Assembly (NCBI RefSeq): GCF_024704725.1
Contig: NZ_JALIQS010000010.1
Location: 62,001 to 126,000 of the forward strand
DNA from: Shinella sp. CPCC 101442
Lineage (GTDB): Bacteria > Pseudomonadota > Alphaproteobacteria > Rhizobiales > Rhizobiaceae
DNA: 64,000 nt
Direction of reading: 5' to 3'
The position numbers were made by a program, and so were the translations under genes. Positions 56,724 to 64,000 of this stretch are shown here, piece after piece (positions within the stretch are counted from its first letter, which is position 1; each line of letters begins with the position of its first letter). The notes under the pieces are model-generated. The model had not been told where the DNA came from. It ran no database searches and saw only the letters and a program-made list of their open reading frames with translations.

Positions 56724-57617
56724 ATGATCAAGCTGGAAGCATTGCGGGTCTTCGTCACCGTGGCGGAGAGCGGGAACATCAAGGACGCGGCCGATGCCGT
56801 CGGCCGCACGGCGTCTGCCGTATCGATGACGCTGAAGCAGCTTGAAGACGAGATCGGCGGACCGCTGTTCCAGACCGATCGCAAGAACAGCCTGACGGCG
56901 CTGGGCAACCTGATGCTCGATCTCGGGCGCGAGCAGATCCGCAGCTTCGACAAATCCGTCAGCATCATGCGGGCCTTCGCCCACAGCCGCATCGGCAGCC
57001 TGTCCATCGCTTCGGTACCGTCCGTGGCAACGAACGTGCTGCCGCCGATCCTGCAACGTTTTCTGGAAACCCGTCCGCAGGTGCAGGTCGAGCTGTTCGA
57101 CATCGATACCGCGCAGGTGCGGCGCATGGTGGAAAGCGGGGTCGCCGATATCGGCATTGCGGGTGAGAGCCGAGCCGGCGGCGGGGTGGAGTTCACGCCG
57201 CTCTTCAGCGACCGGTTCAAGCTGCTGTGCAGGCAAGACCATGAACTGTGCCAGCTCGGCCGAGCCGTGGAATGGAGTGACCTCAACGCGGCGACGCTGA
57301 TCCGCAACGGCGCGTCCGACAGGATCGAGGCGGAGGACTACAAGCGGCTCGCGACGCAGTCGCTGATCAATGTCTACAACGTCACATCGCTGGTCGCGCT
57401 GGTAAAAACCGGCCTTGGCCTCACCATCCTGCCCTCGCTCACCATGCACGGCGCCCACGAGGGCGTGGCGGTGCTGGAACTCGCCGACGCGGCGGCAAGC
57501 CGCCGGGTGGGGCTGGTCGAGCGGCGCGACGTTCCCCCCTCGCCGGTCGCGGCCGCTTTCCGCGCCTTCGCCTTGAAGGAAATTCCGGCGCTGGTTGCCG
57601 AACGTCTCGGGAACTGA
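56724..57617 (+). CDS. LysR family transcriptional regulator
   Basis: A 297-residue LysR regulator. The helix-turn-helix covers about residues 1-60 (ALRVFVTVAESGNIKDAADAVGRTASAVSMTLKQLEDEIGGPLFQTD), and the C-terminal effector domain runs from about residue 90 (LSIASVPSVATNVLPPILQRFLETRP). It is divergent from the catabolic operon across about 100 bases, the usual layout for an activator of that operon. The region contains AT-rich sequence but I see no clear T-N11-A site. Confidence 0.92.
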   Translation: MIKLEALRVFVTVAESGNIKDAADAVGRTASAVSMTLKQLEDEIGGPLFQTDRKNSLTALGNLMLDLGREQIRSFDKSVSIMRAFAHSRIGSLSIASVPSVATNVLPPILQRFLETRPQVQVELFDIDTAQVRRMVESGVADIGIAGESRAGGGVEFTPLFSDRFKLLCRQDHELCQLGRAVEWSDLNAATLIRNGASDRIEAEDYKRLATQSLINVYNVTSLVALVKTGLGLTILPSLTMHGAHEGVAVLELADAAASRRVGLVERRDVPPSPVAAAFRAFALKEIPALVAERLGN

Positions 57618-57764: not shown

Positions 57765-58712
57765 GTGCTCAATCCGCTTTCAGTCGTCCTCAAGAAACGT
57801 CTCGACATTGCCTTCAACACGTCGTCCGATTTTCGCGCGCGGATCGTCGAATTCCCCGGCCTCTGGATGTCAGCACCCGATATCGCCGACCTGCGACGGG
57901 ACCTGAAATCGGTTGCGCTCCGGACCATTCAGGGCGGAGATCTGGACTACGGCGTCTTCTCCGAACGTGAGGATGCGTTGAACCGCACGATCGTGACGCT
58001 GGTCTACCGCGTTTCCGACGGCGCGCCGGTTGCTTTCAATGCGCTGCCGGTGATTTCGCTCTCGCTTTCGGGAAAACCCGTGGAAGTCCTCCATCTCGGG
58101 CTTGTCATGATCGATCCCGCCGTGCGCAGCCAGGGTCTTTCCTGGGTGCTCTACGGTCTCACCTGCTTCCTCCTCTTCCTGCGCAACCAGCTCCGTCCGC
58201 TGTGGATCTCCAACGTCACGCAGGTTCCGGCCGTCGCCGGCATGGTGGCCGAGACGTTCTCCGGCGTCTTCCCCTCGCCGACCCGCGGCGCGCGGCGCGC
58301 ACTCCGCCAGCAACTGATCGCGACGGAAATCATGGCCACGCACCGCCATGTCTTTGGCGTCGGCCCGCAGGCAGGCTTCGACGCTGACCGCTTCGTCATC
58401 ACCGACGCCTATACCGGCGGCTCGGATAATCTGAAGAAGACATTCGACGCCGCCCCAAAGCACCGCAAGGCCGAATACAATGATTTCTGTGCCGCCGAAC
58501 TCGATTACGAGCGCGGCGACGATCTGCTCCAGATCGGCCAGCTCGATCTCAACGCAGCCCAGCGCTATCTCATCGAAAGCGTGCCGCGCAACGCCCTTGG
58601 ACGACTGGCGGTGACAAGTTTCGTCATCCTCGCGCAGCGCCTCGTCCTGCCCGTGCTGCACTGGACCGACGGTCGTCGGCAATGGGGCATATTGAGGCCT
58701 TTCAAACGATGA
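57765..58712 (+). CDS. GNAT-like protein, first gene of an unknown operon
   Basis: A 315-residue soluble protein. The centre resembles an acetyltransferase acyl-CoA loop: VLHLGLVMIDPAVRSQGLSWVLYGLTCFLLF at about residues 107-137. Other parts (ISLSLSGKPVE, TQVPAVAGMVAETFSGVFPSP) have no clear family. GTG is the start; no ATG fits. Its stop overlaps the ThiF-like start by four bases. It may acylate a small molecule or protein used by the other enzymes in the operon; I do not recognise a named family. Confidence 0.8.
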   Translation: MLNPLSVVLKKRLDIAFNTSSDFRARIVEFPGLWMSAPDIADLRRDLKSVALRTIQGGDLDYGVFSEREDALNRTIVTLVYRVSDGAPVAFNALPVISLSLSGKPVEVLHLGLVMIDPAVRSQGLSWVLYGLTCFLLFLRNQLRPLWISNVTQVPAVAGMVAETFSGVFPSPTRGARRALRQQLIATEIMATHRHVFGVGPQAGFDADRFVITDAYTGGSDNLKKTFDAAPKHRKAEYNDFCAAELDYERGDDLLQIGQLDLNAAQRYLIESVPRNALGRLAVTSFVILAQRLVLPVLHWTDGRRQWGILRPFKR

Positions 58713-59593
58713 ACGTCTTTTCCTATGAAACCTTCACCACCCGCAACATCGGCTTCGTCAGCGAGGCCGAGCAGCGCCGGTTGCATGAGGCCACTGTCTT
58801 CATCTGCGGGACGGGCGGCATGGGCGGGGCCGCCATCCAGGCGCTGGCGCGTGCCGGTGTCGGCCGTCTGATCCTTGCCGATATCGACCGGTTCGAGCTT
58901 TCCAATCTCAACCGCCAGGTCTTCTGCTTCGCGGACACGATCGGCCAGCCGAAGGCTGAGGCGACCCGCGATCTCTGCCTGAAGATCAATCCCGAACTCG
59001 ACATCGCCGTCCTGGGCCCGGAATGGACGGAGCATGCGGAAACGCTCGTCGCCGACGCGAATGTGGTGATCAACGGCGCCGACGATCTCGGCGCAAGCCT
59101 CCTTCTCTACCGCACCGCGCGGCGCCGGGGCAAAACGGTGATCGACGCCTACGCCTCCCCCCTGCCCTCGGTCTACGTGACGCGCCCGAAAGAACCGATG
59201 CCGGAGGAGCGCCTCAGCTATCCGACCATCGGGACGCCCTGGAACGCGCTGACTGGCGAGCAGCGGGCCGAAGCCTTTCTGCGCGAGGCCGAGCATGTCA
59301 TGGTCCACTCCTCCTCCCGCCACCATGTCGATCTTGCTCTCGCAGGCGAAGTGGTCGCCGGCACGCGCAGCCGCATGTCGTTTGCCCCCATGGTCATCTC
59401 GACGGGCACGCTGATGGCCTATGAGGCGATCAACACCTTGCTCGCCCGCCCCCATGGCGCGGACTACCGGGGCTGGTTCTTCAATCCCCATGCGGGCCGG
59501 GTCGAGCGGCCGCGCAACGCCCTCGCCGCCGCCCTGTTGCGCCCGCTGGTTCGACGCTACCTGAGGCGGCTTGCCGCGCCGGCAAAACCATGA
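58709..59593 (+). CDS. ThiF/HesA/MoeB-type adenylyltransferase (E1-like)
   Basis: A 294-residue E1-like protein that would adenylate a carboxyl group with ATP. The glycine loop is GTGGMGG (34-40), followed by LILADIDRFELSNLNRQ (54-70) with the ATP-contacting Arg, and QPKAEATRDLCLKINPE. The zinc-binding CxxC pairs of ThiF/MoeB are absent, and the C-terminal half has YASPLPSVYVTRP and HVMVHSSSRHHVDLALAGEVVAGT. It overlaps genes on both sides by four bases. No ubiquitin-like sulfur carrier is encoded next to it, so its acyl substrate is unknown. Confidence 0.88.
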   Translation: MNVFSYETFTTRNIGFVSEAEQRRLHEATVFICGTGGMGGAAIQALARAGVGRLILADIDRFELSNLNRQVFCFADTIGQPKAEATRDLCLKINPELDIAVLGPEWTEHAETLVADANVVINGADDLGASLLLYRTARRRGKTVIDAYASPLPSVYVTRPKEPMPEERLSYPTIGTPWNALTGEQRAEAFLREAEHVMVHSSSRHHVDLALAGEVVAGTRSRMSFAPMVISTGTLMAYEAINTLLARPHGADYRGWFFNPHAGRVERPRNALAAALLRPLVRRYLRRLAAPAKP

Positions 59594-60792
59594 TCGCGCC
59601 GTCCATCGCCGACATGTTCATTTCGCTTGCCGCCTTTTGCGGGCTGGTGATCCTCATTCGCTCCATCCGTACATTGAACACGCAAAGTCCGCTGACGCGC
59701 CGTGTCCTCTTCGGCCTGCGCGTCCTCGCCGCTCTGATGATCTGCCGCGTGCTCACCTGGTGGACCGGGCTCTTTCTGTTCAATACGGCGACCTACATCG
59801 CGGCTGGCCTCGTGCCGCTTGCGGCCATCCTGCTTGCCGAGGGCCTTATGCGCCGCCATGCGCCGCCCTTGACCAAGGTGATCGCCGCAGGCGGCGCGGC
59901 GAGCTTTACCGTCCTTGCCTTCCTGCCTGCCGCCTTTGCAGAGCCCTGGCGCTTTGTCTTGCTCTTTGTCTATCAACTCGTCACCTTCGCGCTCGCCGGC
60001 CACATGGCGGTGACGCGCGACCTCAAGAGCCTCTCCAAGGCGGAAAATCAGGCTGTGGACCGCATCGCACTGTCGCTGCTGCTCATCCTGCCGCTGCTTG
60101 TCACGGATTTCCGCTCGACCTATGTCGATTTGCCGGTGCGGCTTGGCGGGGTGGCCGTGCTGTTCCTGTGCTGGCTGCTGATCAGCCTCGGCCAGCGTGC
60201 CGTCAGCCATCGCGACACCATCATCTCCTTCGTCATCCTGCTCTCGGCCGCCTTGTTGGCCGCGCTCGCCATCGGCCTCGAAAACAGTTTCGATGCCACT
60301 GCACTCGTCCGCACGGCGAGCGTGATCATTTCTGCGGCGCTGCTCGGCGTGATCTGGAAAGACAGTGTCGGATTGCGCACGGAACAGCACCGCCAGAGCC
60401 TCATCCGCCATCTTGCCGAAGACCGTATCGATGACACGGTCGGTTTCCTGAAGGAGTTGCAGAACCACCCGCTCGTCGAGGGCGCGCTTCTTCTTGACGA
60501 GACGGAGTTGGCTGACCTTGACCTTGCCGGCCTGAAACAGCTGTTTTCCGCCCGCCCGCTGCTGCGGGCCACGGAAACCTCCGACCTTTCGGAAACGAAT
60601 GCCGAACAGCTTACCTGGCTGCTCGAAAAATACGAGGCGACCCATGTGATGCTGGTTTCACGCAGGCCCTTTCGGCTGATCGCGCTCAACATGCCGTCCG
60701 TCTCCGCCACGCCGGGGGCCGAGACGGAGCTGAAGGTCGTCCAGCGCATGGCCCTTCTGATTTCGGAGAGGACACATGATCGAGATCCGTGA
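59590..60792 (+). CDS. Polytopic membrane protein of unknown operon
   Basis: A 400-residue protein with about nine hydrophobic segments in residues 1-260 and a soluble C-terminal part of about 140 residues (EQHRQSLIRHLAEDRIDDTVGFLKELQNHPLV onward). No transporter motif is visible. It overlaps the ThiF-like gene by four bases and the next GNAT gene by 17 bases, so it is surely part of the same unit. It may anchor the other proteins at the membrane or move their product. I do not recognise the family. Confidence 0.8.
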   Translation: MIAPSIADMFISLAAFCGLVILIRSIRTLNTQSPLTRRVLFGLRVLAALMICRVLTWWTGLFLFNTATYIAAGLVPLAAILLAEGLMRRHAPPLTKVIAAGGAASFTVLAFLPAAFAEPWRFVLLFVYQLVTFALAGHMAVTRDLKSLSKAENQAVDRIALSLLLILPLLVTDFRSTYVDLPVRLGGVAVLFLCWLLISLGQRAVSHRDTIISFVILLSAALLAALAIGLENSFDATALVRTASVIISAALLGVIWKDSVGLRTEQHRQSLIRHLAEDRIDDTVGFLKELQNHPLVEGALLLDETELADLDLAGLKQLFSARPLLRATETSDLSETNAEQLTWLLEKYEATHVMLVSRRPFRLIALNMPSVSATPGAETELKVVQRMALLISERTHDRDP

Positions 60793-61882
60793 GGGTGACA
60801 TCGACGCCTTCTTCGCCGCGCCTTTCGCGGCCTATGGCGAGAAATCGCTCTACGTCTCGCCGATGCTGAGTGACCTCAGGCGCTTCCTTTCGGCGGAAAA
60901 GAACCCTCTTTTCGAAACAGCGGACGATTTCGCCGTCTTCACAGCCCATGAGAGCGGCGTGGTGTGTGGCCGTATCACTGCCCACGTCCACGCGGCGGCC
61001 AACGCTCGCTTCGGCCTGAAACACGGCTATTTCGGCTATTTCGACTGCGCTGACGACGAGCGCGTCGCCGCCGTGCTGCTGGAACGGGCAGAAGATTGGG
61101 CGCGCGCACGGGGCTTCACCGAAATCCTCGGCAATTTCAACCTCACGGCCATGCAGCAGGTCGGCATCATGACCGGCGGTTTCGAGCATGCGCCTTACAC
61201 GGATCAGATCTGGGGGCCGCCCCACTTGCCGCGCCTTCTGGAAAAACGCGGCTATTCCCCCACTTTCCCAATGACGACCTTCGAGATCGGTCTCCGCAAC
61301 GCGCCCCTCGACGGCATTCTGAACGGGGCGGAGATGCGGGCGCCGCGCGCCGACGGTTTCCGCTTCTCGCCGATCCGCCGCGCGACACTCGATCGACGCC
61401 TCGAGGATTCGCGGCTGATCCTCAACGAGAGCTTCGCCGACAACCCGATGTTCGTGCCTGTCAGCCGTGCGGAATATGAGTTCCAGGCCAAGGAGATGAA
61501 GTGGATCATGGATCCACGCATCTCGGCAGTCGCGGAAAAGGCCGGCGTGCCCGCAGGCGCCGTGATCGCCATTCCAGACGTCAATCCGATGCTGAAGGCG
61601 ATGGGCTCGCGCCTGGGCCTCTCCGCTCCCTGGCATCTCGTCAAACATCGCCTGCGCCGCCGCCGCGCCGTCGTCATCTTTCAGGGCGTGAAGCCGGAAT
61701 TCCAGGGCCGCGGCCTCAACCCGCTGATGCTCGCCCACATCCTCGGCGAAATGCGCAAGGCCGGCTACGAGACGGCCGGCGGCACCTGGATCGCCGACAC
61801 CAATGCGGCGAGCCTGCGCCAGGCCGAAAAGGCCGGCGCCCGCCCGCTGCACCGGGTGCATCTCTTCGGAAAGACGCTATGA
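60776..61882 (+). CDS. GNAT-family acetyltransferase-like protein, second in operon
   Basis: A 368-residue protein whose N-terminal half resembles uncharacterised GNAT proteins (YGEKSLYVSPMLSDLRRFLSAEKNPLFE; HGYFGYFDCADDERVAAVLLERAEDWARARGFTEILGNFN). A second acetyltransferase-like region lies near residues 300-360 (VKPEFQGRGLNPLMLAHILGEMRKAGYETAGGTWIADTNAASLRQAEKAGARPLHRVHLFGK), with the Q/RxxGxG-like loop QGRGLN. This two-domain layout occurs in N-acyl transferase relatives that act on lipids or amines. Overlaps with both neighbours show translational coupling. Substrate unknown. Confidence 0.82.
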   Translation: MIEIREGDIDAFFAAPFAAYGEKSLYVSPMLSDLRRFLSAEKNPLFETADDFAVFTAHESGVVCGRITAHVHAAANARFGLKHGYFGYFDCADDERVAAVLLERAEDWARARGFTEILGNFNLTAMQQVGIMTGGFEHAPYTDQIWGPPHLPRLLEKRGYSPTFPMTTFEIGLRNAPLDGILNGAEMRAPRADGFRFSPIRRATLDRRLEDSRLILNESFADNPMFVPVSRAEYEFQAKEMKWIMDPRISAVAEKAGVPAGAVIAIPDVNPMLKAMGSRLGLSAPWHLVKHRLRRRRAVVIFQGVKPEFQGRGLNPLMLAHILGEMRKAGYETAGGTWIADTNAASLRQAEKAGARPLHRVHLFGKTL

Positions 61883-62895
61883 GCCGCATCGACACCGCCA
61901 CGCTGACAATCCTCGCCGGGGAAGCAAATCGCGCGCCGTCCACGCACAACACCCAGCCCGCGCGTTTCGTACTGGACGAGGCGGGCCGCATCCTGATCGT
62001 CGCCGATCTTTCCCGACGTCTCGCCATCGGCGATCCGACAAACCGCGACATGGGTCTTTCCTGCGGTGCGGCGCTGGAGGGGCTGACGATGGCGCTTGCC
62101 GGACGCGGTATCGGCGCGGCGGTCGAGGATTTCTGGCCGGAGGATATGCAATGGCGTCCCGGTTATCGGCTCGCGGCACGCGTCACCCTGGCCGGCGAAG
62201 CGACAAGCCCGGAACGGGCAGCCTTCACTGAGAAACGCTTCACCTGGCGCGGAGCCTTTTCGCCCGCCACGGCTGAAACGCTGGCGAAGCTCGAAAGCTG
62301 GGCGCTGCAAACGGATGACGTAATTTTTGCTGGTGGAAGGGACGCGCTTTCCTTCATCGCGACGCTCAACGACGAGGCCAGCCTCACCGTCATGCGCGAA
62401 CGCGCCTTTCGCGAGGAACTCGTCGCCTGGATGCGGCTTTCGCCAAATCACCCCACTTACGCGGCTGACGGCCTCAATCTCGACGCCCTGCGCATGGGGC
62501 GGATGGAAGGCGCGGTGGCGGGAAGAATCCTCGCCTCGCCGCTCTTCGACCTCGCCGACCGGGTCGGTCTCGCCAAGCCGCTGGTCTCCGAAGCCGGCAA
62601 GACGATGACGGCGGCAGCGTGTCTGCTGTTCCATCGCCCCGACGGCGAAAGCCCGGTCGCGACGGGCCGGGCCTTCTATAGGTTCTGGCTGGATTTCACG
62701 CGGCTTGGCTTTGCGGGCTGGCCGATGGCGGTGCTGGCGGATGTCCCTGTCGCCGCAGACACGTTGCGCAAACGCTTCTCGCTCCCCTCGGGTTGCCGCC
62801 TGATCAACGTGTTGCGCGTCGGTCCCGCACCCTCGCCCCCTGCCAAGTGCCGCCTGCCGGCGGGAGATCTCGTACTGGAGGAAAAGCCGACCTGA
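61879..62895 (+). CDS. Acg-like nitroreductase-fold protein
   Basis: A 338-residue flavin-binding-fold protein of the Acg/nitroreductase family. RAPSTHNTQPARFVL (18-32), then DPTNRDMGLSCGAALEGLTMAL, are strong matches to Acg, which has a lid that closes over FMN. RRSW-type catalytic features of usual nitroreductases are absent. It ends the operon; its stop lies inside the loop of a terminator hairpin. It may sequester FMN or oxidise an intermediate made by the E1-like protein. The start overlaps the upstream stop by four bases. Confidence 0.87.
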   Translation: MSRIDTATLTILAGEANRAPSTHNTQPARFVLDEAGRILIVADLSRRLAIGDPTNRDMGLSCGAALEGLTMALAGRGIGAAVEDFWPEDMQWRPGYRLAARVTLAGEATSPERAAFTEKRFTWRGAFSPATAETLAKLESWALQTDDVIFAGGRDALSFIATLNDEASLTVMRERAFREELVAWMRLSPNHPTYAADGLNLDALRMGRMEGAVAGRILASPLFDLADRVGLAKPLVSEAGKTMTAAACLLFHRPDGESPVATGRAFYRFWLDFTRLGFAGWPMAVLADVPVAADTLRKRFSLPSGCRLINVLRVGPAPSPPAKCRLPAGDLVLEEKPT

Positions 62896-62909
62896 GGCCG
62901 GTTTTTCCT
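62879..62909 (+). terminator. Terminator hairpin between convergent operons
   Basis: AGGAAAAGCCG pairs with CGGTTTTTCCT, one G-U pair and a nine-base loop. A run of five T residues lies in the downstream arm for the plus strand, and the reverse side offers A/T-rich arms for the minus-strand aas gene. It may work in both directions. Confidence 0.7.
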
Positions 62910-62915
62910 GTCGTC

Positions 62916-64000
62916 TCACGCTGCCTCTTCGTCCTTCGCCTTTTCCGCCAGCAGCTTTTGGGCGCTCACGAAATCCACCTTGCCGGAGCCGAGCACGGGC
63001 ACCGCCCCGACCTTCACCTCCGACGGCACCATCATGTCCATGGCGCCACGGTCCTTGGCGTAGCGCAGGAAGGCTGCCCGGGTGGCGTCCGGCGCGTCGG
63101 TCAGAAGGACGAGGCGCTCGCCCTTCTTGGCATCGGGCAGCGAGACGACGACCGAGAGTGTGCTGGGCCAAATCTCACCGGCCAACGCTTCGACAGCGGC
63201 CAGCGAGACCATTTCGCCGCCGATCTTGGCAAAGCGCTTGGCGCGGCCGCGGATGGTGATGAAGCCGTCCTCGTCCACCATCACGATGTCGCCGGTATCG
63301 TGCCAGCCATCGGGTGTAGGCTCCAGTACGCCGGGATTTTCGGCCCGTAGATAGCCGGACATGACATTGGCGCCGCGCACTAAGAGACGGCCGCCTTCGT
63401 CAACGCCGGGGACGGGATCCAGCCGATATTCCATGCCGGGCATAATCTTGCCGACGCTGCCCGCCTTGTTGAACATCGGCGTGTTAAGCGCGATGACCGG
63501 GGCGGCCTCGGTGACGCCGTAGCCTTCGAGGATGCGCACGCCGAACTTTTCCATGTAGAGCGCGCGGGTGGTGGCACGCACCGGTTCCGCGCCGGCAAAG
63601 CAGTAGCGGATCGAGCGGAAGTCGTAGGGATGCGCCGTGCGGGCGTAACCGTTGAGGAAGGTATCCGTGCCGAAGATGATGGTGGCATTGGAGGAATAGA
63701 TCAGCTCCGGGATGATCCTGTAGTGCAGCGGCGACGGATAGAAATAGACCGGAACGCCGGAAACGAGCGGCAGGATGGTGCCGGCAGTGAGGCCGAAGGA
63801 GTGGAAGACCGGCAGGATGTTGAACACCTTGTCGCCCGAATGGAAATCGATGCGGGAGGCGGCCTGCGCGGCGTTGGAGAGGATGTTGCGATGGGTGAGC
63901 ACAACGCCCTTCGGAGTGCCCTCCGAGCCTGACGTGAAGAGAACCACCGCCGGATCGTCCGCCCCGCGTTTGATGAGGGGGCGGCTTTTTCGCAGGAGGC
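62916..64000 (-). CDS. aas: Acyl-ACP synthetase/2-acylglycerophosphoethanolamine acyltransferase, C-terminal part
   Basis: The C-terminal AMP-forming ligase domain of an Aas-type bifunctional enzyme, cut by the window end. It has the P-loop-like VLFTSGSEGTPKG near the edge, the GYGVTEAAPV motif, WHDTGDIVMVDEDGF and RAKRFAKIGGEMVS, all closer to Aas than to free fatty-acid CoA ligases. Aas reacylates lysophospholipids in the inner membrane and activates fatty acids on ACP. About 361 codons are visible; the N-terminal acyltransferase domain would be outside. It is convergent with the unknown operon and shares its terminator. Confidence 0.88.
   Translation of the reverse strand, partial: LLRKSRPLIKRGADDPAVVLFTSGSEGTPKGVVLTHRNILSNAAQAASRIDFHSGDKVFNILPVFHSFGLTAGTILPLVSGVPVYFYPSPLHYRIIPELIYSSNATIIFGTDTFLNGYARTAHPYDFRSIRYCFAGAEPVRATTRALYMEKFGVRILEGYGVTEAAPVIALNTPMFNKAGSVGKIMPGMEYRLDPVPGVDEGGRLLVRGANVMSGYLRAENPGVLEPTPDGWHDTGDIVMVDEDGFITIRGRAKRFAKIGGEMVSLAAVEALAGEIWPSTLSVVVSLPDAKKGERLVLLTDAPDATRAAFLRYAKDRGAMDMMVPSEVKVGAVPVLGSGKVDFVSAQKLLAEKAKDEEAA

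Follow-up and report, generated by a model that had tools for sequence, protein, structure and literature searches.

A candidate acyltransferase, ThiF and flavin oxidoreductase operon of Shinella and related Alphaproteobacteria, with possible oxazolone-type lipid chemistry

Introduction

Oxazolone lipids have been described in bacteria just recently, and their role has been called a major unresolved question (PMC12856293). According to the available parts of the accounts of tyzACB and trzAS, the acyltransferases TyzA and TrzA N-acylate amino acids, a ThiF protein or domain carries out an ATP-dependent cyclisation that gives acyl-oxazolones, and a flavin oxidase desaturates with O2 (PMC10404671, PMC12856293); the oxzAB acyl-oxazolone pathway is known here through the same citing papers. 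Related gene sets accompany the dehydrotyrosine lipids (thalassotalic acids, kyonggic acids and stieleriacines), whose clusters, in the portion of the source available, combine an N-acyl amino acid synthase (NAS) with ThiF and nitroreductase genes, while the clusters of a producer of the saturated forms alone are described as having neither of the latter two (PMC12479983). Here we describe a five-gene operon (genes A, B, M, N and F) of Shinella sp. CPCC 101442, found in a 64,000-nucleotide stretch of contig NZ_JALIQS010000010.1 (hereafter the window), and propose, by analogy with these systems, that its product is a modified N-acyl amino-acid-type lipid formed along the lines of the acyl-oxazolone pathways, a reading to which we give a probability of about 0.5.

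Like tyzACB, oxzAB and trzAS, the operon co-encodes an acyltransferase candidate (A), a ThiF-type protein (B) and a flavin oxidase candidate (F), and as in tyz its ThiF and oxidase genes are separate. Unlike these systems, as far as the accessible text describes them, its A is not FeeM-like by sequence, its F lies nearer Acg in a weak tree, it adds M and N, and its A-M pair also stands alone. Non-FeeM-like A, Acg-leaning F, the extra M and N and the occurrence of A-M by itself likewise distinguish it from the N-acyl dehydrotyrosine clusters, two producers of which show short gaps or overlaps between genes, as in the operon (PMC12479983, partial text). Since it contains no FeeM-type synthase and the oxidase branch seems to differ, we do not class the operon as an oxz/tyz/trz member. 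A preliminary description of the locus, made from the DNA letters, knew of no described pathway with this set of genes. For the trio of acyltransferase, ThiF protein and flavin oxidase this was mistaken, because the tyzACB and trzAS chemistry is published; for the full five-gene set it stands, in that a literature search by titles and abstract openings, with subscription journals largely outside its reach, returned no description. The trio is thus already known, and the present set seems to have been rebuilt from other parts. The same description had suggested a pathway in which a small molecule, lipid or peptide is activated, acylated and oxidised; for a small molecule or lipid this is partly supported, in agreement with the chemistry published for sets of acyltransferase, ThiF protein and flavin oxidase (PMC10404671, PMC12856293).

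A single-chain form of the trio occurs on plasmid pDVUL01 of Nitratidesulfovibrio vulgaris DP4 (locus L154, 5062-8031), where one protein of 989 residues, the length of NF011425/PRK14852, joins FeeM, ThiF and nitroreductase domains among PEP-CTERM/XrtA genes. It has the same three kinds of domain as the operon, from which it differs in being one chain, in its FeeM domain and in its context, and it is a one-protein version of the oxazolone-type trio.

Architecture and distribution of the operon

The five genes lie on the plus strand of the window and overlap successively by 4, 4, 17 and 4 bp in the open reading frame listing, exactly as the preliminary description had it (Table 1). To follow them elsewhere, an 84,980-species collection was scanned with an alignment of four A proteins, which gave 158 candidate stretches, 109 of them confirmed and the best 80 kept. 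These loci are conditioned on A, which is present in all 80 by construction, whereas M is present in 79 and not by construction; architectures were called by profile searches of open frames, with 8 of the 80 loci short downstream. All five genes (A-B-M-N-F) occur together in 25 loci and subsets of at least two in 54 others, namely A-M in 33, A-B-M-F in 16, A-M-F in 3 and A-B-M in 2, and the one locus with A alone lies at a contig end. Gene order is constant (none of the 80 loci departs from it), and N is always accompanied by B and F. Because the full set recurs in the same order in 25 loci and its subsets in 54 more, the association is more than chance. A-M looks like the core of the system.

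The expectation that the order would be kept across Alphaproteobacteria holds among loci that carry A, within a set that is rare: A was found in 3 of 385 genomes of the class (single-protein query) and M in the same three (alignment query), while at family level M occurs in 2 of 199 genomes, the window's own included, and two other genomes of the genus are without it. Most hosts belong to the Rhizobiaceae, Phyllobacteriaceae, Roseobacteraceae and Paracoccaceae; Lysobacter and a metagenome-assembled genome of Thermoanaerobaculia contribute one locus each, and the set as a whole occurs mostly in soil and marine Alphaproteobacteria. It is also carried on plasmids of Shinella, Ensifer and Rhizobium (A in ten plasmid records, M in nine); the three annotated plasmid regions inspected have the five genes in the same order, under annotations such as hypothetical, ThiF and GNAT.

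In a tree of A (83 rows built by a quick method, with long branches and a root on a very long outgroup branch), five-gene loci are scattered widely, four-gene loci fall in one Rhodobacterales and one Mesorhizobium group, and two-gene loci are found next to these and interspersed with them, a pattern that needs at least nine changes for B/F and at least six for N. Of the five loci in the Mesorhizobium group, B and F are both present in two and both absent from two, and the fifth has a shortened F with a trace of N; this looks like recent loss, as far as its direction can be inferred.

B was also sought elsewhere in 33 genomes, drawn, L059 excepted, from 29 of the 33 A-M loci, the three A-M-F loci and two further genome records, with the genome of L080 counted twice. 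One genome has a B-type gene (532 bits), nine have just ThiF-family matches of 74-81 bits and 23 have none, so that the idea of A-M genomes keeping B at another site is true of one genome among those searched. That one genome, of Yoonia sp. F2084L, carries A-M at one locus and, at a second (L201, 3745-8351), B-N-F with a convergent cytochrome gene and without M; ahead of B there, 35 residues weakly resemble the end of A (E 0.01), A itself not being intact. M is present in a single copy in all 47 genomes searched through their M-bearing loci.

The five proteins

B is a ThiF protein by Pfam (5.9e-34). Across 40 aligned rows R12, G34/G36/G37, N68-R69-Q70, K82, D125 and D126 are invariant, which we take to be adenylation residues, and D125, which none of the 40 rows changes, corresponds in alignment to the aspartate in the CTDN motif of ThiF; a ThiF-type gene that retains this ATP-site aspartate is therefore found next to an acyltransferase candidate. 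Relatives of B at E <= 1e-30 are few (5 of 299 genomes of the phylum besides the window's own), and several keep similar company: one adjoins a FeeM-like synthase and a nitroreductase (L103), another a FeeM-like synthase (L104), and in two more loci (L105, L106) a similar acyltransferase, judged by eye, lies 3-4 kb away among PEP-CTERM-like genes. In a ThiF tree of 34 rows, which includes eight other ThiF-fold proteins and was built without TyzB, TrzS and OxzB, B is a single clade (SH-aLRT 99) that falls on the same side as the NAS-associated ThiF proteins, and six of the eight other ThiF-fold proteins lie beyond a branch of 99. A search for the Rv1355c family in 299 genomes at E <= 1e-40 found no match and is uninformative, its controls having been equally silent.

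As a separate observation, the ThiF proteins of L103-L106 (of the PRK08223 kind, as scored in L103 and L104) adjoin or lie near exosortase-associated or FeeM-like acyltransferases, and exosortase regions may carry oxazolone-type lipid genes.

A has no Pfam family above cut-off in the window protein, and its 63 members match Pfam weakly at most (8 match Acetyltransf_9, best 0.0038); the FeeM family PF21926 is absent from the families that they match at E <= 0.1. An AlphaFold2 model from the 63 sequences (predicted local distance difference test score, pLDDT, 85.2) has a C-terminal helix, and Foldseek gives 32 matches at E <= 0.001, the best (2.7e-5) to GNAT enzymes and several at a probability of 1.00, with low TM-scores of 0.21-0.34 by query length among the matches listed, which are acetyltransferases and, as we read them, GNAT-type toxins. 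The GNAT label that the preliminary description had given to A is thus borne out as a predicted fold, by the modelled structure and by the weak Pfam matches of some members. Searched by sequence against the PDB, neither A nor M gave anything above noise.

N has a GNAT domain (Pfam 1.1e-7), and by profile comparison it is a full-length relative of YghO, the ceramide-type N-acyltransferase: 25 N proteins align along their length, over 359 columns, with the YghO of E. coli BL21 (hhalign 99.9%, E 4.6e-32). YghO is placed in a group called aca (PMC9386255), and we read aca and bCerS (PMC11087976), from the parts of both sources available, as one family with the same activity. The SPT (serine palmitoyltransferase), acyl carrier protein (ACP) and reductase genes of those systems are not among the operon's five.

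F matches the Pfam nitroreductase family weakly (21.6 bits against a cut-off of 23.5). Its profile aligns with the Acg nitroreductase (2ymv) over 323 profile positions at 7.2e-18; F differs from Acg in scoring below the cut-off of the Acg model and in lying in a biosynthetic-looking operon. Beyond these loci, a Streptomyces anthocyanicus plasmid (L157, 2650-5972) encodes a protein related to F (169 bits with the F profile); its gene overlaps that of an MMPL transporter, and a very large aminotransferase-type protein is encoded close by.

No Pfam family scores above cut-off for the M of the window, and 57 members of the family show no match in Pfam or NCBIfam that is consistent. Its AlphaFold2 model (pLDDT 92.7) has eight helices followed by a 42-residue helix and a small alpha/beta domain, and because the helices are hydrophobic M is presumably an integral membrane protein.

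A proposed pathway and its alternatives

In the pathway that we favour, A, held at the membrane with M, would use acyl-CoA or acyl-ACP to place a fatty acyl chain on the amino group of an amino acid or comparable head group. B would adenylate the free carboxylate with ATP and so drive cyclisation to an oxazolone-type ring, a role proposed because of its fold, its conserved residues and the published reactions of TyzB and TrzS. F, as a putative FMN oxidase, would insert a 2,3-double bond using O2, and in the five-gene form N might add a second acyl chain or acylate another amine. The gene pattern shows an A-M core able to stand alone, to which B and F, and then N, could be added as tailoring steps.

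The A-B-M-F form, with 16 loci, has one acyltransferase candidate, one ThiF protein and one flavin oxidase, which is the composition of tyzACB plus M, and because it differs from a published composition by a single added gene, we take the same chemistry as the best single reading. The natural fusion of the three kinds of domain in Nitratidesulfovibrio supports one shared pathway. Also in favour we count the conserved order in the 80 loci with its three main nested architectures, the FeeM-like or similar acyltransferases by the B relatives of L103-L106, the side of the ThiF tree on which B falls, the invariant D125 of B and its lack of a CxxC pair, and an acyl-metabolism gene, Aas, that is convergent to the operon in 14 of 43 loci with long flanks.

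Several observations weigh against this proposal. Profile comparison (hhalign) of A with five FeeM-type proteins gave 0.8% and with N 0.2%, no sequence relation being detected in either case, so that A as a FeeM-like protein or as a relative of N is not supported by sequence; nor does any FeeM protein or acyl-homoserine-lactone synthase appear among the Foldseek matches of A listed, unlike TyzA, for which these are reported as the closest folds (PMC10404671 / PMC12856293). A remote relation of A to FeeM through the predicted GNAT fold is possible. The Rv1355c-family model (cut-off 476) has weak matches to B (44.1 bits) and, in another part, to F (46.3 bits), and F scores higher with the NCBIfam Rv3131/Acg-family model NF047509 (148.6 bits, itself below the cut-off of 199). 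Its tree likewise places F beside Acg and the Streptomyces plasmid protein (94) and apart from the two oxidases of FeeM-ThiF sets, and F is probably nearer Acg/Rv3131, on a weak tree that is small and long-branched, has just those two oxidases, and draws on outside proteins whose pairwise scores are equally low. Two of the eight other ThiF-fold proteins fall among the NAS-associated ones, which makes that grouping loose, and holding B and the NAS-associated ThiF proteins together costs 8 log units (approximately unbiased test, p-AU 0.219), a grouping neither rejected nor shown. B and F are separable, F occurring without B in three loci and B without F in two (one locus of each class at a short contig), and one locus counted as A-M (L059) has an F-like oxidase gene (1395-2480, 249 bits) 5.5 kb upstream of A, outside the usual place. 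Finally, the published trio, as the available text presents it, includes nothing that corresponds to M or N, and no N-type protein is mentioned in those parts of the tyzACB and trzAS descriptions (PMC10404671, PMC12856293).

The nature of N and M opens two other routes. N could be the central enzyme of a ceramide-like branch, acylating a long-chain base while A, B and F tailor a sphingolipid-like molecule; its full-length relation to YghO speaks for this, as do alpha-oxoamine-synthase-like (SPT-like) open reading frames seen by eye near 2 of 14 distant N-homologue loci (L146, L148). N is, however, missing from the 16 A-B-M-F and 33 A-M loci and so is not the core step, and with no SPT gene among the five we consider this route improbable. 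A little less improbable, though still unlikely, is that A and M are a sensing or signalling pair, in which M would sense the membrane and A modify a protein or small signal, with B, N and F making the signal in some strains. The long helix that joins the helical part of M to its small alpha/beta domain in the model would suit such a role, as would weak matches of 3 of the 57 members to 7TMR-DISM (best 0.0037) and a neighbouring PspA/YiaA/TetR-type block suggestive of membrane stress. M nevertheless has no recognised output domain; a relation to PrsK kinases was rejected at 4.7% in hhalign against the N-terminal parts of four of them, and Foldseek gave no PDB match to M at E <= 0.001, the weaker matches listed being nearly all G-protein-coupled receptors, which we read as generic helical bundles.

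Two further explanations start from B and seem to us very improbable. One takes B as a sulfur-carrier or cofactor E1 of MoeB/ThiF type, making the operon cofactor-linked, and E. coli ThiF is indeed its best solved relative. There is no carrier open reading frame among the five genes, however; B is a separate clade in the ThiF tree, and the genome has another ThiF-family gene that scores higher than B (238 versus 116 bits). A Zn-binding CxxC pair is expected in such E1 proteins, and none of the 40 B rows has one, a weak test because, in the frames inspected in three other ThiF loci, just two had one. ThiF folds also occur in systems for ribosomally synthesised and post-translationally modified peptides, in protein conjugation and in E1-based defence, and the operon could by the same token be a peptide or conjugation pathway, E1-based phage defence included; the defence model NF058523 matches B at a weak 40.2 bits against a cut-off of 320. 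This last explanation, about as improbable as the cofactor one, is countered by the lack of a recognised E2, JAB or precursor among the five genes, with neither a systematic search for small precursors nor a scan with the PADLOC library having been made.

Beyond the acyl-oxazolone proposal itself, we raise a broader and more tentative possibility, which we would rather doubt than affirm: that A-M is a stand-alone, patchily distributed acyltransferase-membrane pair making an unseen N-acyl membrane lipid in Alphaproteobacteria, that B-F or B-N-F modules, assembled from other parts than oxz/tyz/trz, tailor it to an oxazolone-type lipid, that N or a second amine may open the ring to a two-chain lipid, and that all of this has an envelope-stress or peroxide setting. 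If the acyl-oxazolone proposal holds, the operon would be a second, differently assembled solution for oxazolone lipids, and families A and M, which have no informative Pfam match, would gain a function. Across the nested series of A-M, A-B-M-F and A-B-M-N-F, natural strains have or lack particular steps, and comparing their lipid extracts could reveal the product; the neighbours of PspA/YiaA and cytochrome-peroxidase type suggest stress roles that are open to test.

Neighbouring genes and other features

Table 1. Features of the operon and its immediate surroundings, with positions in the window
Feature	Position	Strand	Size and start	Assignment
Gene A	57765-58712	+	315 aa, GTG start	Acyltransferase-like, predicted GNAT fold with C-terminal helix; first of the A-M pair
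Gene B	58709-59593	+	294 aa	ThiF/E1-like adenylating enzyme, proposed carboxylate-activating cyclase
Gene M	59590-60792	+	400 aa	Undescribed helical, presumably integral membrane protein; partner of A
Gene N	60776-61882	+	368 aa	N-acyltransferase-like, YghO / aca (ceramide-type) family
Gene F	61879-62895	+	338 aa	Acg-like FMN oxidoreductase, proposed desaturase
Hairpin at the end of F	about 62879-62909	.		Possible terminator shared with the convergent gene (folding and consensus scan)
Aas gene, C-terminal part	62916-63998	-		Acyl-[ACP]--phospholipid O-acyltransferase; convergent, runs past the window end
YiaA-, PspA- and TetR-type genes	beyond the Aas gene of the window locus			Names from annotated Shinella and Ensifer plasmids

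The terminator with which the operon had been said to end is plausible but unproven. A hairpin does span the stop codon of F (-19.3 kcal/mol, z -1.63), but 11 of 200 shuffles fold equally well, and the consensus scan flags the minus strand alone, the next gene being convergent. Upstream, a LysR gene (56724-57617) was left out of the operon because just 2 of the 80 loci have such a gene in the 3 kb upstream of A; it is 119 bp away in L029, and on an Ensifer plasmid a LysR-type gene lies 1.3 kb from A with another gene between.

Flanks were surveyed in stretches of up to 20 kb, some of them short, from 43 genomes. A convergent di-heme cytochrome c peroxidase-like gene lies downstream in 14 of the 25 five-gene loci, directly in 12 and at 2.6 and 5.1 kb in the other two; the example in L040 scores 119.7 bits with CytoC_perox (cut-off 150) and 67.8 bits with the RoxA-like cytochrome model (cut-off 26.7). 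The remaining 11 have Aas and/or YiaA-PspA, plus a TetR-type gene (L012 is without YiaA or PspA, and L018 matches both weakly, on the other strand), and the window locus is of this Aas-YiaA-PspA-TetR type. In none of the 25 do the cytochrome gene and this block occur together within the stretch examined. Aas, YiaA, PspA and TetR matches are also found at all seven surveyed Rhizobiales loci with other architectures, two of the four being weak and on the other strand in L025, and the other 11 A-B-M-F loci have neither the cytochrome gene nor the Aas block in their flanks. With NF005291 the Aas homologue of L014 reaches 1724.7 bits; L033, where Aas is matched weakly at 27%, was not counted. These neighbours may point to a role in envelope stress or peroxide handling.

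Elsewhere in the window's genome, a separate FeeM-type synthase (135 bits; C9:149607-150080, L108 6416-7279) follows a gene that is GGDEF-EAL-like by eye, and genes of c-di-GMP turnover are reported, in the accessible part of the source, to adjoin trzAS (PMC12856293).

The two-gene loci have surroundings of their own, with an MOFRL glycerate-kinase-type gene after A-M in 26 of 33 (within about 40 bp in 12 for which positions were available) and a xylose-isomerase-like gene before A-M in 21 of 33. In L035, L044, L084 and others, A-M lies between sugar-catabolism genes (xylose-isomerase-like, FGGY kinase) and the MOFRL gene, the xylose-isomerase-like gene of L084 scoring 29.8 bits in Pfam, just below the cut-off of 31.1; the hosts of such loci are Yoonia/Loktanella and relatives.

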